This document shows positions 1,928 through 10,136 of a DNA stretch of 34,083 nt, one piece after another; within the stretch, counting starts at the first letter, position 1; each line of letters opens with the position of its first letter. Source of the DNA: a virus; IMG/VR virus record IMGVR_UViG_3300044974_000506, positions 1-34,083 of that record; one strand, written 5' to 3'. The notes below the pieces were generated by a model. That model made no database searches. It was not told where the DNA came from and saw nothing but the letters and a program-made list of their open reading frames with translations. The position numbers and the translations under genes are program-made.

Positions 1928-2878
1928 ATGACTATATTTGTGACTGGTGGTTTGGGATTCATTGGTTCTAATTTCGTAATCTCGCACCTTAAAAAATATG
2001 TAAGCGACACGGTAGTCGTTCTTGATAATCATTCCTATGCCGCGAATGGAAGCAACCTGAATGGCTATTGGGAAGATTATCGCCTAGAAGTTAAGCATTG
2101 CGATATTCGCAATCTTGGTGTTCTGGAGAATCTCTATGAAGACTACAAACCTTCTCACACTTTCCATTTTGCTGCTGAATCTCACGTGGATAATTCTATT
2201 CGGGGCGATGATGTGTTCGTGGACACTAACATTGGCGGAACTCACAATATCATCAAGTGTATCCGTAAACACAGGAGTCGATTAGTCCACATCTCGACTG
2301 ATGAAGTCTACGGAAGTCTAACTCACGAAGATCCTCCGTTTACTGAGAATACTCCATACAATCCTCGCAATCCGTATTCTGCAACCAAAGCAGCCAGCGA
2401 TCATCTTGTTCGCGCATATATCAACACGCACAATATTGATGCAATTGTAACCAATTGTTCTAATAACTATGGTCCACGCCAGCATCGTGAGAAATTTATT
2501 CCAACAATTATTCGCCACATCAAGAATAACACACCTGTTCCTGTTTATGGTAGCGGAATGAATGTTCGTGATTGGTTGTATGTTGAGGATCACTGCGAGG
2601 CTTTGCTTACAATCAAAGAGAATTGGAAAACAGGCGAGCGTTATAACATCGGTGGTGGTGTTGAGATGAGCAATCTCGATATGGTCACTTTGATTCTTGA
2701 CGTTATGGGTAAGCCAGTGCATATGTATCAATCATGGATTAATTTTGTAAATGATCGTAAAGGTCATGACTTCAGATACGCCATGGATGCGAGTAAGATT
2801 TATAAAGAACTAGGTTGGTCAGCAAAGACTAAACTTGCTGAAGGTCTAGAAAAAACATTGGAGTGGTATAATGCGTAA
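1928..2878 (+). CDS. rmlB: dTDP-glucose 4,6-dehydratase (RmlB/RfbB)
   Basis: This enzyme converts dTDP-glucose to dTDP-4-keto-6-deoxyglucose with NAD as internal redox cofactor. The 316-residue protein is an extended short-chain dehydrogenase. It has the N-terminal nucleotide-binding TGGLGFIGSNF (Gly-x-x-Gly-x-x-Gly), the ISTDEVYG segment typical of RmlB (the Asp-Glu pair does the dehydration), and the catalytic YSATK (Tyr-x-x-x-Lys). The length is slightly below the bacterial norm of about 350. GAGG (1920-1923) lies just before the ATG as ribosome-binding site. It overlaps rmlA by 8 bases, so it is the first gene of a translationally coupled sugar operon. The DEVYG and fold motifs favour RmlB over CDP-glucose dehydratase (RfbG). 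Confidence 0.88.
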   Translation: MTIFVTGGLGFIGSNFVISHLKKYVSDTVVVLDNHSYAANGSNLNGYWEDYRLEVKHCDIRNLGVLENLYEDYKPSHTFHFAAESHVDNSIRGDDVFVDTNIGGTHNIIKCIRKHRSRLVHISTDEVYGSLTHEDPPFTENTPYNPRNPYSATKAASDHLVRAYINTHNIDAIVTNCSNNYGPRQHREKFIPTIIRHIKNNTPVPVYGSGMNVRDWLYVEDHCEALLTIKENWKTGERYNIGGGVEMSNLDMVTLILDVMGKPVHMYQSWINFVNDRKGHDFRYAMDASKIYKELGWSAKTKLAEGLEKTLEWYNA

Positions 2879-3743
2879 GGGAATTATTTTATCAGGTGGA
2901 ATGGGAACAAGATTATACCCATGCACCGAAGTGACTTCAAAACAGTTATTACCAGTTTATGATAAACCGCTGGTTTATTATCCATTATCGACATTGATGA
3001 TGGCTGGTATTCGTGACATTATGATCGTGAATTCACCAAACGATGCAGAAGCATTCAAACGTCTTTGTGGCGATGGCTCTCAGTGGGGAATCAGTATCTC
3101 TTATGCTATTCAGCAAGAGCCGAAAGGTATTGCTGAATGTTTCCGTATCTGTGAGAAATGGATCGGAAAGGATGATGTGACGCTCATTCTTGGCGATAAT
3201 ATTTTTTATGGTAACGAACTCATCAATCGTTTCAATGCAGCAAATTGGAATAATGTCGGTTGCACGCTGTTCGCATATCATGTTGCTGATCCAGAAAGAT
3301 TTGGTGTTATTGAATTAGACAGCAACGACGATCCTGTCAAGATTGTTGAAAAACCCAAATTTGCACCCAGCAATTATGCGGTGACTGGGCTTTACTTTTA
3401 CGACAATAACGTAGTAGAATATGCTTGGAGGATTACTCCTTCAGCAAGAGGTGAACTCGAGATTACAGACATCAATAACATCTATATGCAAAATCATGAT
3501 TGCAAGGTTGAGTATTTGAATCGTGGTATTGCTTGGATTGATACTGGAACTTTCGAATCTCTCTCAGAGGCTTCTGTATTTGTTGGTTCTGTGCAACGTA
3601 GAACTGGGATGATGATTGCATGCCCAGAAGAAATTGCATATAAGAATGCATGGATCACAGAGAATCAAGTGAGAGCCGCTGCTGCAAAATATAGCAAATC
3701 TGATTATGGTAGATATCTTGGACAAATCTTGAGGACAAAATAA
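2871..3743 (+). CDS. rmlA: Glucose-1-phosphate thymidylyltransferase (RmlA/RfbA)
   Basis: This enzyme joins dTTP and glucose-1-phosphate to make dTDP-glucose, the substrate of the upstream RmlB. The 290-residue length is exactly typical. The N-terminus carries the nucleotidyltransferase signature GIILSGGMGTRLYPCTEVTS followed by KQLLPVYDKPLVYYPLSTLM, which distinguishes RmlA from cytidylyltransferases such as RfbF. LGDNIFYG (metal-binding Asp) and the later VEKPK and WIDTGTFESL segments are also present. It overlaps rmlB by 8 bases, and its stop overlaps the ATG of the next gene by one base (TAATG), so expression is coupled. Phages usually rely on host dTDP-glucose, so carrying the whole front end suggests a need for extra or independent supply. 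Confidence 0.92.
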   Translation: MRKGIILSGGMGTRLYPCTEVTSKQLLPVYDKPLVYYPLSTLMMAGIRDIMIVNSPNDAEAFKRLCGDGSQWGISISYAIQQEPKGIAECFRICEKWIGKDDVTLILGDNIFYGNELINRFNAANWNNVGCTLFAYHVADPERFGVIELDSNDDPVKIVEKPKFAPSNYAVTGLYFYDNNVVEYAWRITPSARGELEITDINNIYMQNHDCKVEYLNRGIAWIDTGTFESLSEASVFVGSVQRRTGMMIACPEEIAYKNAWITENQVRAAAAKYSKSDYGRYLGQILRTK

Positions 3744-5038
3744 TGAGTGACGTGAAGCAAATGATTGAAGAATTGGTTGCCGCTGTTGGTACGCCGAAGT
3801 ATGCGTATAACTGTAAGCAATTCAATCCTGAGAAAGATACAGTATTCTATTCTGGTCCATATTGGGACGAGAAAGAAGTTATTGCTGGCGTCACTGCATT
3901 CTTGACAGGTAAGTGGCTCGTCTCTGGTGAGCAAGTCGCCAAGTTTCAGTGGGCGTTTGGACATAAGTTCAATGTAAAGCATTGCCACATGGTCAACTCT
4001 GGTTCGTCTGCCAATCTTACCATGGTTGCTGCTCTCAAGAAACACTTGGGCTGGAAGGATGGCGACCAAGTTATCGTTTCACCAGTAGGCTTCCCAACTA
4101 CAATTGCTCCGTTGGTTCAAAATGGGCTTGTGCCAGTCTTTGTTGATATTGAGATGGAAACACTCAACTTTGATCTTGATCATGTTGAAAAGTGGATCAC
4201 CGATAAGACCGTTGCCATTTTTGTCTCACCAGTTCTTGGCAATCCGCCAGATATGGATCGAATCAAGGCTATGTGCGAGAAACATAGCATTCGTTTGATT
4301 GGTGATAACTGCGATTCACTTGGCACAAAGTGGGATGGCAAACTGCTGACGGATTATTACTATGCGTGGACAACATCTTTCTATCCTGCTCACCACATTT
4401 CGACAGGCGAAGGCGGCATGGTTTGCTCAAACGACGAGCAACTCATCAATACTGCTCGCAGCATTAGCTGGTGGGGTCGTGATTGCCGTTGCGTTGGTGC
4501 TGCTAATCTATTGGCTTGTGGAACATGTGGCAATCGCTTTGATAAATGGCTTGAAGGATATAATGGAATAATCGATCACAAGTATCTGTTCTCAAATATG
4601 GGATACAATCTCAAGCCACTCGATCTTCAGGGTGCGATTGGTATTGAGCAGTTGAAGAAGATCGATGAGATTGATGTCAAGCGTCGTGTAAACTTTGCTC
4701 GTATCAAGCATCTCTTCGAGAAATATGTTCCTGGTGTTCGTGTTGCTGAGAATCTTTTGCTTGCTGATCCTTCTTGGTTCGGTGTTCCTTTGATCACTGA
4801 TACACCTGAACTGAAAGAAAAACTCCAGGCATTCTGTGAAGCAAATCGCATTCAGACTCGCAACTACTTTGCTGGAAATATTCTGTTGCATCCTGGTTAC
4901 AAGCATCTTGACGATGCCTCGAAGTATCCGAATGCTAACAAGGCATTGAGCAATGTATTCTTCGTCGGTTGCCCACCGCATTATGGCGAGGATGTGTTTG
5001 CCTATTACGAAAGCGTGATGTCAAAATGGCAATCGTAA
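3743..5038 (+). CDS. rfbH: RfbH/E1-type NDP-4-keto-6-deoxyhexose 3-dehydrase (PMP and 2Fe-2S enzyme)
   Basis: This is a 431-residue member of the DegT/DnrJ/EryC1/StrS fold, but of the dehydrase branch. The usual PLP-binding lysine is replaced by histidine in YPAHHISTGEGG (His217-His218; the known E1 enzyme has His220). The family's iron-sulfur ligand pattern is present: Cys190, then 57 residues, Cys248, one residue, Cys250, eight residues, Cys259 (Cys262 follows). Published E1 has C-x57-C-x1-C-x7-C. The expected reaction is removal of the C3 hydroxyl of a nucleotide-4-keto-6-deoxyhexose, using PMP and an external reductase. No reductase gene is visible here; a host ferredoxin or flavodoxin system could serve, as for SpnQ. 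It overlaps the next gene by 13 bases. Confidence 0.85.
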   Translation: MSDVKQMIEELVAAVGTPKYAYNCKQFNPEKDTVFYSGPYWDEKEVIAGVTAFLTGKWLVSGEQVAKFQWAFGHKFNVKHCHMVNSGSSANLTMVAALKKHLGWKDGDQVIVSPVGFPTTIAPLVQNGLVPVFVDIEMETLNFDLDHVEKWITDKTVAIFVSPVLGNPPDMDRIKAMCEKHSIRLIGDNCDSLGTKWDGKLLTDYYYAWTTSFYPAHHISTGEGGMVCSNDEQLINTARSISWWGRDCRCVGAANLLACGTCGNRFDKWLEGYNGIIDHKYLFSNMGYNLKPLDLQGAIGIEQLKKIDEIDVKRRVNFARIKHLFEKYVPGVRVAENLLLADPSWFGVPLITDTPELKEKLQAFCEANRIQTRNYFAGNILLHPGYKHLDDASKYPNANKALSNVFFVGCPPHYGEDVFAYYESVMSKWQS

Positions 5039-5907
5039 ACGTCTTTGGAGGATATGGCTTTGTCGGAAGTGAATACTGTAACGTCGCCAAAGGCTGGATC
5101 AAAAATTACAGAGATAATTACCAAGTACGGAGTGCCGATTGCGTTTACTTTATTAGTACCGTTGATAACTATAATGTACACGTCGATTCTCTCTTGGATA
5201 TTGATACTAATCTCGTTGTATTGATGAAGGTTCTCGACGAATATCGTAAATATATAAAAGAAACTGGTGAACAAGGGGTGTTCAACTTCATGAGTTCTTG
5301 GTTCGTTTATGGACAAGACTCTGGATTTGGCGAAGGATCGCGTGGTATTCCCGAGACCGATCCTTGTGACCCAAAAGGATTTTATTCAATTACGAAGCGT
5401 TGCGCTGAACAGTTGCTTATGTCATACTGCGAGACGTTTGGGCTTCAATATCGAATCTTGAGGCTGGCGAATGTACTGGGTAAACAGGATAAAAAGGTAT
5501 CTGCGAAAAAGAACGCTCTCCAATACCTATTGGGAGAGATCGCGGCTAACCGACCAGTTGATCTCTATGATAGTGGGTATTTTTATCGTGACTATATTGA
5601 TGTTAGGGATTGCGCTCGAGCAATCGATCTGGTTGTCCAGCAAGGAGAAATCAACTCCATCTACAATATCGGAAACGGTAAACCGATAATCTTTCGAGAC
5701 ATTGTTCGTTACGCTCGAGACGCGATGGATTCTGCGTCAGAACTCCGCACGATTGAGCAGAAAGAATTCCACAAGAAAGTTCAATCCTCTCGTTCCTTCT
5801 TTATGAATAATACTAAACTTGAATCCTTGGGTTACAGACCACAATACACGATTCAAGAAACCGTCGACGACATCATTCACGGAATACTAACTAAAGAAAA
5901 TAACTAA
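5026..5907 (+). CDS. NAD(P)-dependent SDR epimerase/dehydratase/reductase of the sugar operon
   Basis: The protein has 293 residues from the ATG at 5026 (MAIVNVFGGYGFVGSEY); a frame extension back to 4969 would lie inside rfbH and lacks support. GGYGFVG is the dinucleotide-binding loop and YSITK is the Tyr-x-x-x-Lys catalytic pair. RDYIDVRDCARAI and YNIGNGKP are typical of extended SDR sugar enzymes. In Salmonella and Yersinia dideoxyhexose operons the corresponding last enzyme is a 4-ketoreductase such as abequose synthase (RfbJ) or paratose synthase (RfbS). That role fits the position after rfbH, but the exact product cannot be read from the sequence. Epimerase activity is the alternative. 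Confidence 0.75.
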   Translation: MAIVNVFGGYGFVGSEYCNVAKGWIKNYRDNYQVRSADCVYFISTVDNYNVHVDSLLDIDTNLVVLMKVLDEYRKYIKETGEQGVFNFMSSWFVYGQDSGFGEGSRGIPETDPCDPKGFYSITKRCAEQLLMSYCETFGLQYRILRLANVLGKQDKKVSAKKNALQYLLGEIAANRPVDLYDSGYFYRDYIDVRDCARAIDLVVQQGEINSIYNIGNGKPIIFRDIVRYARDAMDSASELRTIEQKEFHKKVQSSRSFFMNNTKLESLGYRPQYTIQETVDDIIHGILTKENN

Positions 5908-5937: not shown

Positions 5938-7080
5938 ATGTTTGGTTTCAAACAGTATATTCCGTTTCTAACAGAGCAAAAAGCACCTGCTCGCGGAATT
6001 CAACACCTCCCACACGCATTCGAACCAGCCTTCCACGCTCGTAAAGTTGCAGTATCATCTGCAGTCTCTAAAATTCAAAAAGTCGCTAGTGGTCGCGCTC
6101 CACTGACTCGTAAAATCGACGATCGTATGTCATTCCAGGTTATCCACACACCTGAAGGGAAGGTTGGAGTCAAATACAAAGGTCCTGGAGCAACATATAA
6201 CTTCTCTCCAGAAGATATCAAGAAACAATATAGCGAAAAACCATATATCGCTGGACCATTGATGAACACTCTCAAGCACATTCATAAGGTGCTTCCAGAA
6301 GGACCAGGGGAGTATCAAGGTGGATATCTCAGTGCTATCGAGGATCGCACCGAAGAAGATGGTAAGATTGGGCACAAACCAAATACTATTCGCTATTCTA
6401 TAGATAAAAACTCTCCAGAAGGTAAGAAACTCGCAAAGGCTCCGTTGAGTGTCGCCTTACACTCTAGACTAAATGCGAAGGGTGAGGCTTCTCCTATTGA
6501 AGCAGGTGAATTGAAAGATCATCCTGATGTTCATGTAATGAATCATGTTGTTTCTGCTGATGAGAGAAAATTAAGCCCAGAAGCAAAACGTAAAGTTCTT
6601 ACTCATCTTGCAGCTGCAAAGGAATTGAATAAGGATCATGGTCATGAACATCATGAAGGTCATGAAGAAACATTACAACGATATTCCAATTCAACCGTTG
6701 ATAGTGGCGAAAAGCCATCTGCTAAAGGCTATAAGAAATTCTTAGAAAAATATCACCAAAAACGAATTGATTCAGTGAAGACAGAAAAAGCCAAAAATCA
6801 AAAACGTGAAGAAATGAAAGCAGCGATGAATCATGTAAATGATAATCTAGAAAAATTCGATCGTTCTTTTGATATACACCACCACTTACAACAAGCCACT
6901 TATGCAACAGCTGACGCTCTATCTAAAACGGCTCATGGTGGGTATTCGCATCACATCTTTGGTCAAGAGGCTGCTGGCGAGGGATTTGTTTCTGGCAATT
7001 CTAAATTTGTACCTCGTAAATTCACTGAAGCAAATCGCAAAAGATCAGCCGAACTCAAAGCGCAAAAGAGTGTAATATGA
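5938..7080 (+). CDS. Putative head-internal (capsid-targeted) protein of unknown function
   Basis: A 380-residue soluble, basic, His-rich protein. Its first residues, MFGFKQYIPFLTEQ, resemble the capsid-targeting sequence of T4 internal proteins (IPIII begins MKTYQEFIAE), and FLTE/Q fits the Leu-x-Glu preference of the T4 prohead protease gp21. Two other genes here (14889 and 15747) share the same start. A His-rich patch (HGHEHHEGHEE, about residues 234-244) could bind metal. The C-terminal half is coiled-coil-like (Lys/Glu-rich, residues 255-300). There is no recognised enzyme motif. Its stop (TGA 7078-7080) overlaps the ATG at 7077 (ATGA), so it is coupled to the next gene. Packaging into the head is an inference. 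Confidence 0.7.
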   Translation: MFGFKQYIPFLTEQKAPARGIQHLPHAFEPAFHARKVAVSSAVSKIQKVASGRAPLTRKIDDRMSFQVIHTPEGKVGVKYKGPGATYNFSPEDIKKQYSEKPYIAGPLMNTLKHIHKVLPEGPGEYQGGYLSAIEDRTEEDGKIGHKPNTIRYSIDKNSPEGKKLAKAPLSVALHSRLNAKGEASPIEAGELKDHPDVHVMNHVVSADERKLSPEAKRKVLTHLAAAKELNKDHGHEHHEGHEETLQRYSNSTVDSGEKPSAKGYKKFLEKYHQKRIDSVKTEKAKNQKREEMKAAMNHVNDNLEKFDRSFDIHHHLQQATYATADALSKTAHGGYSHHIFGQEAAGEGFVSGNSKFVPRKFTEANRKRSAELKAQKSVI

Positions 7081-10000
7081 GTAAAGCCACTTTCACGTTC
7101 GGTCGTTTCAATCCTCCAACAGAAGTTGGGCATGGTAAGTTGGTTTCTGCTGTCCAATCTCATGCAGAAAAGTCTGGCGGTAGCCATTATATTTTCCCAT
7201 CACATTCTCAAGATGCCAAGAAAAATCCATTGAGTCACGCTGATAAAGTTCATGCTATGAATAGGCTGTTTCCAAATGCGAATGTGGTTTCACAAGGAAA
7301 GGTTAGAACAGCAATCGATGCAATGAAGCATCTAGAAAAGAAAGGTCACACTAATGTGACAATGGTTGTTGGCTCAGATCGAGTTGCAGAGTTCCATGGA
7401 TTACTTTCTAAATACAGAAAGAAAGAATTTCCTGGAATCAAAAAGGTAAACGTTGTTTCAGCAGGTAATAGAGATCCTGATGCAGAAGGCGCAGAGGGAA
7501 TGTCTGCTTCTAAACTTCGCGGATTGGTTTCTGCAGGAAAGAAGGACGAATTCGTTTCACATTATAGCGACAAAAAATTAGGCGCACATATACATGATAG
7601 AGTAAAAGCAGGTTTACAAATGGAATCAACAAACCCTGTCGGCATTTTTCTACTTGGTGGTCCTGGAAGCGGGAAAGATTATGTTCTCAAGAACATTTTC
7701 TCTCGTTTCGATTTGACTGAAGTGCAAGCAGACCAAATTCTGAATGGAGTTGCATCAGAACTCTATGAGTCAAAGCAGAACATCGTCATCAATGGCGCGA
7801 ATGATCCAGAAAAGATTTCTGTGATTCAATCGATGCTTGAGGGATATGTTTTTGATTTCGTGCATGTAACTGTATCAAATAAAGTTTCTCGTTTGCGCAA
7901 TGAACAGCGCGAACAGCCAATTGACGAATCAAAGCGCATTGATAAGTTTCTCAAGGCAGAAAAACTTGCTCAGCAAACTGAAGCATATATCTTCAATAAC
8001 TCAATCAATCTAAACGAGTCATCAGAGTTTGAAAGAGTTTTCTTTGCTTCTCAAATCGAAAAACTTCTTGAGCGAATTGTTGAACTTGGTTTACCAATGC
8101 TTGAATCAGCAGAACCAAAAACTTTTTTGCACCTTCGCGAAAAGAAATTTCCTCCCGTCGCGAAGGACAAAGAAACAGGGCTTCCAAAAAAGTACGTTCG
8201 AGGTTTGAGCACTTCAACCGCAAAGGCACGTAAGACTCATTGGAAAAAGATGGGCAAGTTGTCAGATAAAGATCCAAGAGCGTATGAGCCAGCTCCTGGA
8301 GATGCAACTGCGAAAACAAAACCAAGCAAGCATACTATTGCTGTTCGTAAGATGATGGACGAACAGGTTTCAGGTAGTTTGAAAGTTCCACATACCGTAG
8401 AATCAATCGCTGAGAAACATAAAGTTTCAGTTGCTTCTATTATCGAAGCATTGAAGCGTGGTATGCAGGTTGAGATGGAACATACCAAAGACGAAGCAAC
8501 CGCAAAGATTATTGCACTCGCTCATCTCTGGGAAAAGCCAGATTACTATACATTGCTCGCAAAGATGGAGCAAGCAGAACCAATGACTGCTGCTGATCAC
8601 ATTGACGCAGAAAAGAAAATTCAAAGAGAACGAGATCGTCGTGACTGGAGAATTTTACATCATCAAAATCGTCACATCCATAAAGCAGCGATGGGCGAAG
8701 CAGCTGAAGATCTACCACCAAAACTACGTCGCGCACCAAGAAGTGGCAATATTACTCAGGTGATGGATAAGCGTCAAGAGACAGGTCGCGTTGAAGAATC
8801 AGATTCTTCACTCTCAGCAAAAGCCGCAAAGTCTGGTATTTCTGTTGGCACTCTTCGCAAAGTCTATAAGCGTGGAGTTGCTGCATGGAATTCTGGACAT
8901 CGTCCAGGAACGACACCACAACAGTGGGGTCACGCTCGTGTGAATTCTTATATCAATAAGGGCAAAACATATCACACTGCTGATAAAGACCTAAGAGAAG
9001 AACTAGAAAATATTGACGAACTATTCGAAATGCAATTAGTGGGCACGGACGAATACCGAAAGCATGCAATTGCAATGACCCCAGGACAAGACCAGGAGAT
9101 AGCAAATGCTTTCAGCACTAAAGCAACTACTCAAACCAAGGAATCAAATGAAGGTTGTGGTTGCGAAAATGACACAAATGCAGAAGTTGGAAATGGAAAT
9201 GGAGAAAGTGTTCCTCGACGCTTCAGAGATCTCAGAACAGAAGCCAAAAAAGAAAAGGAAGTTGGCGGAGACTCAACAGTAAATCTAGAACCTGTCTTTG
9301 ATCCAAAAAAGAAAAAGCCAAAGAACTCTCAAATAACACCTCCAACTCACACAGACGCAGCTCTTCAGGGATTGCCAGTTGCTTCTCGCTATACAGCATT
9401 CGAAGAAAAGCAGCCAAAGAAAGACTTCATGCCAACTCCTCGTCAAGTTCCACCTCCTCCAGGTGGTCATGACGTGCCAAAAGGATTCAAGCGAGTTCGC
9501 GATCACATCGCTGGCTGGAAACTTGTAAAGGAAGAAGATAAAGAAGTTACTCTTGAGGAAGCAGTTCAATATCACCTCGAGAACAAAATCTCATTTACTG
9601 AGAATGTTTTCCGCCCAGGATCAGAAATGTTCTTTGATATGATCAGCGAAGCCAAGCGTCTTTATAAAGAAGGCAGTTATGAGCCAAAAGATGACTGGGA
9701 AAGAGACATGCTCAATTCAGACATCGGCGAGATCGCAGAGTTTGAAGGTCAACAAGTTGTTCTTGACTATCCTGTTCAGGAAGGTCTAGAAGAATGCTGG
9801 AAGGGTTATACTCAACGCGGAATGAAGAAGAAGGGCGATAAGATGGTCCCCAACTGCGTTCCTGTGAACGAAGCCGATGATCCAACAAAAGGTAAGGGTA
9901 TCGGCAAGCCATGGCAAGAAGGCGGTGGTGGTGCTGTTTATGTTCGAGTTGGCGACGGGGTCCGTAAAGTCAGTTTCAGTAAGTCTGGAATGAAGAAAAA

Positions 10001-10136
10001 GTATATGGATCCTGCAGCAACTCGCTCTTTTGTCGCTCGCCATCGTTGTTTGACGAACACGGATAAAACCAGCGCATCCTACTGGGCATGCCGTTGGCCA
10101 CGTTTCTTCAGCAATTCAGGTAAGACATGGTGGTAA
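7077..10136 (+). CDS. Giant mosaic protein: nucleotidylyltransferase, P-loop kinase and several small phage modules
   Basis: A 1019-residue chain of distinct modules. Residues 1-180 form a nucleotidylyltransferase resembling NMN adenylyltransferases: GRFNPPTEVGH near the start is the HIGH-type motif and SASKLR (about 143-148) is the second signature. Residues 190-345 contain a Walker A, Gly194-Gly-Pro-Gly-Ser-Gly-Lys200-Asp, as in small kinases. After that come short blocks I recognise as recurring separately in aquatic phage proteins: KKYVRGLSTSTAKARKTHWK, a DUF5661-like block (VEMEHTKDEATAKIIALAHL), GHRPGTTPQQWGHARVNSYI, LVGTDEYRKHAIAMTPGQ, FTENVFRPGSEMFFD, ECWKGYTQRGMKKKG (Cys907) and a C-terminal RHRC...YWACRW block. 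The first two domains could act in NAD or nucleotide metabolism; the rest is unknown. It may be packaged or processed like its neighbours. Confidence 0.8.
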   Translation: MSKATFTFGRFNPPTEVGHGKLVSAVQSHAEKSGGSHYIFPSHSQDAKKNPLSHADKVHAMNRLFPNANVVSQGKVRTAIDAMKHLEKKGHTNVTMVVGSDRVAEFHGLLSKYRKKEFPGIKKVNVVSAGNRDPDAEGAEGMSASKLRGLVSAGKKDEFVSHYSDKKLGAHIHDRVKAGLQMESTNPVGIFLLGGPGSGKDYVLKNIFSRFDLTEVQADQILNGVASELYESKQNIVINGANDPEKISVIQSMLEGYVFDFVHVTVSNKVSRLRNEQREQPIDESKRIDKFLKAEKLAQQTEAYIFNNSINLNESSEFERVFFASQIEKLLERIVELGLPMLESAEPKTFLHLREKKFPPVAKDKETGLPKKYVRGLSTSTAKARKTHWKKMGKLSDKDPRAYEPAPGDATAKTKPSKHTIAVRKMMDEQVSGSLKVPHTVESIAEKHKVSVASIIEALKRGMQVEMEHTKDEATAKIIALAHLWEKPDYYTLLAKMEQAEPMTAADHIDAEKKIQRERDRRDWRILHHQNRHIHKAAMGEAAEDLPPKLRRAPRSGNITQVMDKRQETGRVEESDSSLSAKAAKSGISVGTLRKVYKRGVAAWNSGHRPGTTPQQWGHARVNSYINKGKTYHTADKDLREELENIDELFEMQLVGTDEYRKHAIAMTPGQDQEIANAFSTKATTQTKESNEGCGCENDTNAEVGNGNGESVPRRFRDLRTEAKKEKEVGGDSTVNLEPVFDPKKKKPKNSQITPPTHTDAALQGLPVASRYTAFEEKQPKKDFMPTPRQVPPPPGGHDVPKGFKRVRDHIAGWKLVKEEDKEVTLEEAVQYHLENKISFTENVFRPGSEMFFDMISEAKRLYKEGSYEPKDDWERDMLNSDIGEIAEFEGQQVVLDYPVQEGLEECWKGYTQRGMKKKGDKMVPNCVPVNEADDPTKGKGIGKPWQEGGGGAVYVRVGDGVRKVSFSKSGMKKKYMDPAATRSFVARHRCLTNTDKTSASYWACRWPRFFSNSGKTWW

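Follow-up and report, generated by a model that had tools for sequence, protein, structure and literature searches.

A phage gene cassette with an E1-type 3-dehydrase of a distinct branch, predicted to make a dTDP-linked 3,6-dideoxyhexose

The four-gene cassette and its dTDP-type enzymes

The window, meaning the whole 34,083-nucleotide stretch of viral DNA analysed here, carries four successive genes (Table 1). Their coordinates and their overlaps of exactly 8, 1 and 13 bases agreed with those recorded in an earlier sequence-only reading of this DNA. The start of the SDR gene was assigned to the ATG from which the orthologs align, while the program-made ORF entry opens at TTG 4969. The phage origin was confirmed by contig genes for a T4-type terminase, a gp32-like SSB, a UvsX-like recombinase and a helicase, and an endolysin gene was also present. 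A candidate T4 late promoter motif (TATAAATA) was rejected, its occurrence being at chance level. Just downstream of the cassette, both here and in relatives, lies a gene for a 1019-residue protein (7077-10136) whose N-terminus resembles nucleotidyltransferases; the protein also matched a zeta-toxin kinase weakly and includes DUF5661 and DUF5824 segments.

Table 1 Genes of the cassette and the features supporting their assignment
Gene product	Position	Strand	Supporting features
RmlB, dTDP-glucose 4,6-dehydratase	1928..2878	+	TIGR01181; best PDB match RmlB 1g1a
RmlA, glucose-1-phosphate thymidylyltransferase	2871..3743	+	TIGR01207; best PDB matches RmlA
E1/DdhC-like PMP-/[2Fe-2S]-dependent nucleotide-sugar 3-dehydrase of a distinct branch (predicted)	3743..5038	+	His218, Cys190, Cys248, Cys250, Cys262
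Extended-type SDR, probable 4-ketoreductase, usual partner of the E1 branch	5026..5907	+	S-S-W-F-V-Y-G ... G-F-Y-S-I-T-K; without the Asp-Glu dehydratase pair

The first two enzymes had been read as dTDP-type, and both passed the curated dTDP equivalog cut-offs of NCBIfam, RmlB with 399.2 bits (cut-off 365.1) and RmlA with 419 bits (cut-off 360.65). RmlB matched its closest solved structure with an E-value of 3e-87. For all four genes, dN/dS was ~0.03-0.13 in diverged pairs, with dS near saturation, indicating that they are under purifying selection. The window RmlB gene was nearly identical in nucleotides to L017:1765-2712, the RmlA genes of the same pair being only 80% identical, and single cassette genes seem to have been exchanged by recombination between phages.

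The 3-dehydrase and its SDR partner

The third gene encodes a histidine-type 3-dehydrase, as judged from its residues, structural matches and phylogeny. Among solved structures, its best matches were Yersinia E1 (3bcx and 3bb8, E ~1e-75 to 1e-73), followed by ColD. An AlphaFold model (pLDDT 86) likewise gave E1 3bb8/3bcx as the best PDB matches, with TM scores of 0.83/0.85, although the cysteine loop 249-264 was modelled with low confidence. His218 occupies the place of the PLP lysine, at the position reported before, and was invariant together with Cys190, Cys248, Cys250 and Cys262, first among 8 and then among 30 aligned relatives. Three of the proposed iron-sulfur ligands, Cys190, Cys248 and Cys250, were thus borne out, whereas the fourth is Cys262 and not the variable Cys259. 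The resulting pattern, C190-x57-C248-x1-C250-x11-C262, carries a four-residue insertion relative to the C-x57-C-x1-C-x7-C of E1, and a Salmonella-type DdhC (L085) also has 7 residues before the fourth cysteine where the phage protein has 11. In the tree, the protein did not group with lysine-type aminotransferases, which upheld the earlier assignment to the histidine-type Fe-S 3-dehydrases. Its proposed identity with RfbH/E1 was only partly sustained: the E1-type signature is present, but RfbH/DdhC orthology was rejected, as the best NCBIfam family (RfbH/DdhC, NF011936) was matched with 363.8 bits, below its equivalog cut-off of 423, and CDP genes were absent from the branch loci.

In maximum-likelihood trees, a split with full support set the E1-like protein and its branch apart from RfbH/DdhC. 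The members of this branch came from phages, Bdellovibrionota including Bacteriovoracaceae, one Nitrosomonadaceae MAG and one Prochlorococcus SAG. By the criterion used, 12 positions differed between the branch and the CDP side, among them Ser162-Pro163-Val164, where the CDP side has Ala-His-Thr, and Trp243, where it has Asp. One of the bacterial loci below 50% identity (L088, 49.8%) grouped with the branch, and a weak SDR match lay directly upstream of its E1 gene. SpnQ itself was absent from the tree; the unconstrained tree put an actinobacterial SpnQ/UrdQ-like group, whose member L164 has a 2,3-dehydratase in its cluster, with the CDP-side enzymes. When these SpnQ-type enzymes were constrained to join the new branch, the tree had a marginally higher score and was not rejected (p-AU 0.625), and no separate origin is therefore claimed for the branch.

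The SDR reached no NCBIfam cut-off. It retained the Rossmann glycine motif and the Ser-Tyr-Lys residues, with Trp-Phe at the position of RmlB's dehydratase Asp-Glu pair. Its model (pLDDT 83) showed an extended SDR fold, and the structural matches were tied among RmlB and other 4,6-dehydratases, epimerases and the 4-ketoreductase RMD (TM ~0.80 in both directions). Because of this tie, the assigned reaction rests on residues and context, from which a 4-ketoreductase is the simplest and probable reading within the pathway.

Gene neighbourhood in viruses and bacteria

Relatives of the E1-like enzyme were found in hundreds of public virus fragments, mostly adjoining the same SDR. Eighty viral loci with an E1 87-100% identical to that of the window (window type) were fetched, and the SDR gene was downstream in all 80; RmlA was detected in 78. 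Where the flanks were long enough, RmlA, E1 and SDR occurred together in 43/43 loci and RmlB in 38/43. A tryptophan-halogenase-family gene was inserted between RmlA and E1 in 7 of the 80; such FAD proteins in relatives' cassettes (L046:1846-3417, L057:5588-7213 and L071:5033-6649) were sometimes present where RmlB was lacking. RmlB, E1 and SDR also occur together in isolated phages of Synechococcus (S-H68/S-B05 type).

Two further viral scans contributed 160 loci, giving 240 viral loci of the branch, and RfbF and RfbG (CDP-glucose synthase and CDP-glucose 4,6-dehydratase) were found in none of them. Among well-flanked loci, the SDR was within 1.5 kb of E1 in 36/36 when the query came from a seawater single-cell virus and in 43/55 when it came from Bdellovibrionota. 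RmlB was frequent in the 160 further loci and RmlC occurred in some, with RmlA in only 3; certain relatives contained E1-SDR and RmlB without RmlA, or lacked both, and a GDP-mannose-epimerase-like gene adjoined E1 in many. These relatives weaken the case for a dTDP donor across the branch as a whole.

In bacteria, the SDR was present in 7 of the 8 loci whose E1 shared at least 50% identity, whereas the SDR threshold was passed in none of the 72 loci below 50%, 46 of which contained RfbF/RfbG. RmlB-RmlA adjoined SDR-E1 in two Bdellovibrionota loci (L086 and L089), RmlA alone did so in another (L176), and in G212 RmlA was ~3 kb from E1. As a rule, the SDR is the dedicated partner of this E1 branch.

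Predicted pathway and its alternatives

The four genes probably constitute a phage pathway to a dTDP-linked 3,6-dideoxyhexose, as predicted from their families and linkage. RmlA would convert glucose-1-phosphate and dTTP into dTDP-glucose, from which RmlB would form dTDP-4-keto-6-deoxyglucose. The E1-like enzyme would then remove the C3 hydroxyl with PMP and no Schiff-base lysine, with His218 as the acid/base and a [2Fe-2S] cluster on the four invariant cysteines, while ferredoxin or flavodoxin systems of the host would supply the two electrons. Reduction of the C4 ketone by the SDR would yield dTDP-paratose or dTDP-abequose, or an isomer. The sugar may finally be transferred, most likely onto a host surface glycan, by a glycosyltransferase of the host or one encoded elsewhere by the phage. 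A search for glycosyltransferases beyond the cassette, as recommended by the sequence-only reading, detected a GT2 glycosyltransferase together with methyltransferases ~10 kb upstream of the cassette in a 101-kb relative, and GT2 genes in other relatives too.

Other expected or competing pathway parts were also searched for, in records that are fragments, so that a reductase or RmlC may sit elsewhere in the genome. RmlC (PF00908) was found neither in the window nor in six related contigs; a D-sugar is therefore expected, and the dTDP-L-rhamnose pathway lacks support. A 2,3-dehydratase (PF03559) was detected in the positive control G1135 and in neither the window nor 13 other phage records, so a SpnQ-type 2,3,6-trideoxy product is not supported. 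Fer2 and FNR-type NAD-binding domains were absent from window-type records and reference phages, except for a ferredoxin in S-H68. SpnQ is supplied with electrons by ferredoxin or flavodoxin reductase pairs, and its mechanism has been reviewed along with that of E1 (PMC8987622). Since the records searched held no DdhD-type reductase, the earlier suggestion that host donors serve the phage enzyme as they serve SpnQ is plausible.

Three alternatives were weighed. The first, which is unlikely, retains the dTDP-3,6-dideoxy sugar but makes the conserved SDR an epimerase or the source of another isomer, or gives the 4-ketoreduction to an additional RmlD-like SDR located between RmlA and E1 in 28 of the 80 window-type relatives. 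The tied structural matches would fit this reading; however, the window and most relatives hold just one SDR besides RmlB, which keeps Ser-Tyr-Lys, lacks the dehydratase pair and is the constant partner of E1 where the RmlD-like gene is absent. Less likely again are two separate modules, in which RmlA/RmlB would feed another dTDP-6-deoxy sugar and E1 would use a CDP- or GDP-4-keto-6-deoxy sugar of the host. Other phages do have RmlA and RmlB without E1, and some viral E1-SDR loci lack RmlA or RmlB, often with the GDP-mannose-epimerase-like neighbour. Against this stand the overlapping genes and strict linkage of the window type, the separate occurrence of the RmlA/RmlB-E1 linkage in Bdellovibrionota, the absence of CDP genes across the viral loci, and branch residues such as Ser162-Pro163-Val164 that differ from the CDP side. 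It is highly improbable that the E1-like protein is a 4-aminotransferase forming a dTDP-4-amino-4,6-dideoxy sugar, despite its Pfam DegT/DnrJ family, a PHROG label of 'aminotransferase' and the transamination by SpnQ when its reductase is absent (PMC8987622), since histidine replaces the PLP lysine in every aligned relative, the four cysteines are invariant, and E1 and ColD dehydrases gave the best matches in both sequence and fold.

The preferred reading, a dTDP-linked 3,6-dideoxyhexose pathway, was compared with known systems. In Salmonella and Yersinia, the CDP pathway comprises DdhA/B/C/D (RfbF, RfbG, RfbH/E1 and E3), followed by the Abe, Prt or Asc enzymes. The phage cassette shares with it the histidine in place of lysine, the four cysteine ligands and, as had been foreseen, the predicted order of nucleotidylation, 4,6-dehydration, 3-deoxygenation and 4-reduction. 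Unlike that pathway, its first two enzymes are dTDP-type, its SDR is a separate family, its E1 is only ~34-40% identical and lies in another branch, and no E3/DdhD reductase was found. SpnQ/UrdQ-type 3-dehydrases resemble the phage enzyme in their Fe-S type, their general host reductases and their dTDP-sugar substrate (the last two predicted for the phage), but they act on a 2,6-dideoxy sugar after a 2,3-dehydratase, which the window and its relatives lack. ColD of the GDP-colitose pathway has the histidine-type 3-dehydrase fold as well; it is farther than E1 from the phage protein in sequence and fold matches, and its pathway is GDP-mannose derived without an Fe-S cluster, whereas the phage enzyme has the cysteines and is linked to RmlA/RmlB. 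Paulomycin was discarded as a dTDP-3,6-dideoxy precedent, as its paper concerns 2,6-dideoxy chemistry. T4-like cyanophages such as P-SSM2 and S-SCSM1 also carry sugar genes, including LPS and nucleotide-sugar genes for which host-surface alteration has been proposed; in the portions available, these reports name neither a dTDP 3,6-dideoxy pathway nor E1 (PMC2984593, PMC9602691). Searches of the open-access literature brought up no report of an E1 3-dehydrase in a phage.

3,6-Dideoxyhexoses are strong O-antigen determinants. In one survey, they occur mainly in Salmonella and Yersinia, and abequose and paratose are treated as CDP-linked (PMC7725333). On the best reading, the kind of pathway is known from its CDP version, and what is new is a separate E1 branch with its own SDR and dTDP-type partners. 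More tentatively, the branch may represent an unrecognised dTDP route to 3,6-dideoxyhexoses, widespread among viruses and present in a few bacteria, by which phages could install on the infected cell or virion a sugar that the host cannot make. If so, 3,6-dideoxyhexose chemistry would extend to a dTDP route in many phages, with E1-type deoxygenation under phage control, offering a testable handle on surface remodelling by phages. The labels 'CDP-4-dehydro-6-deoxy-D-glucose 3-dehydratase', which the S-H68 copy of E1 carries, and 'aminotransferase' would then probably be wrong for such phage genes, in substrate or in reaction.

Two variant arrangements were also observed. In four viral loci (L299, L303, L290 and L338), RmlC directly followed E1 and the SDR was absent, which suggests an L-configured, ascarylose-like variant. 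Furthermore, a 642-kb uncultured phage (LR756502) encoded, besides E1, a second, ColD-like dehydrase (L083:6513-8612) beside a GDP-fucose-synthase-like SDR.
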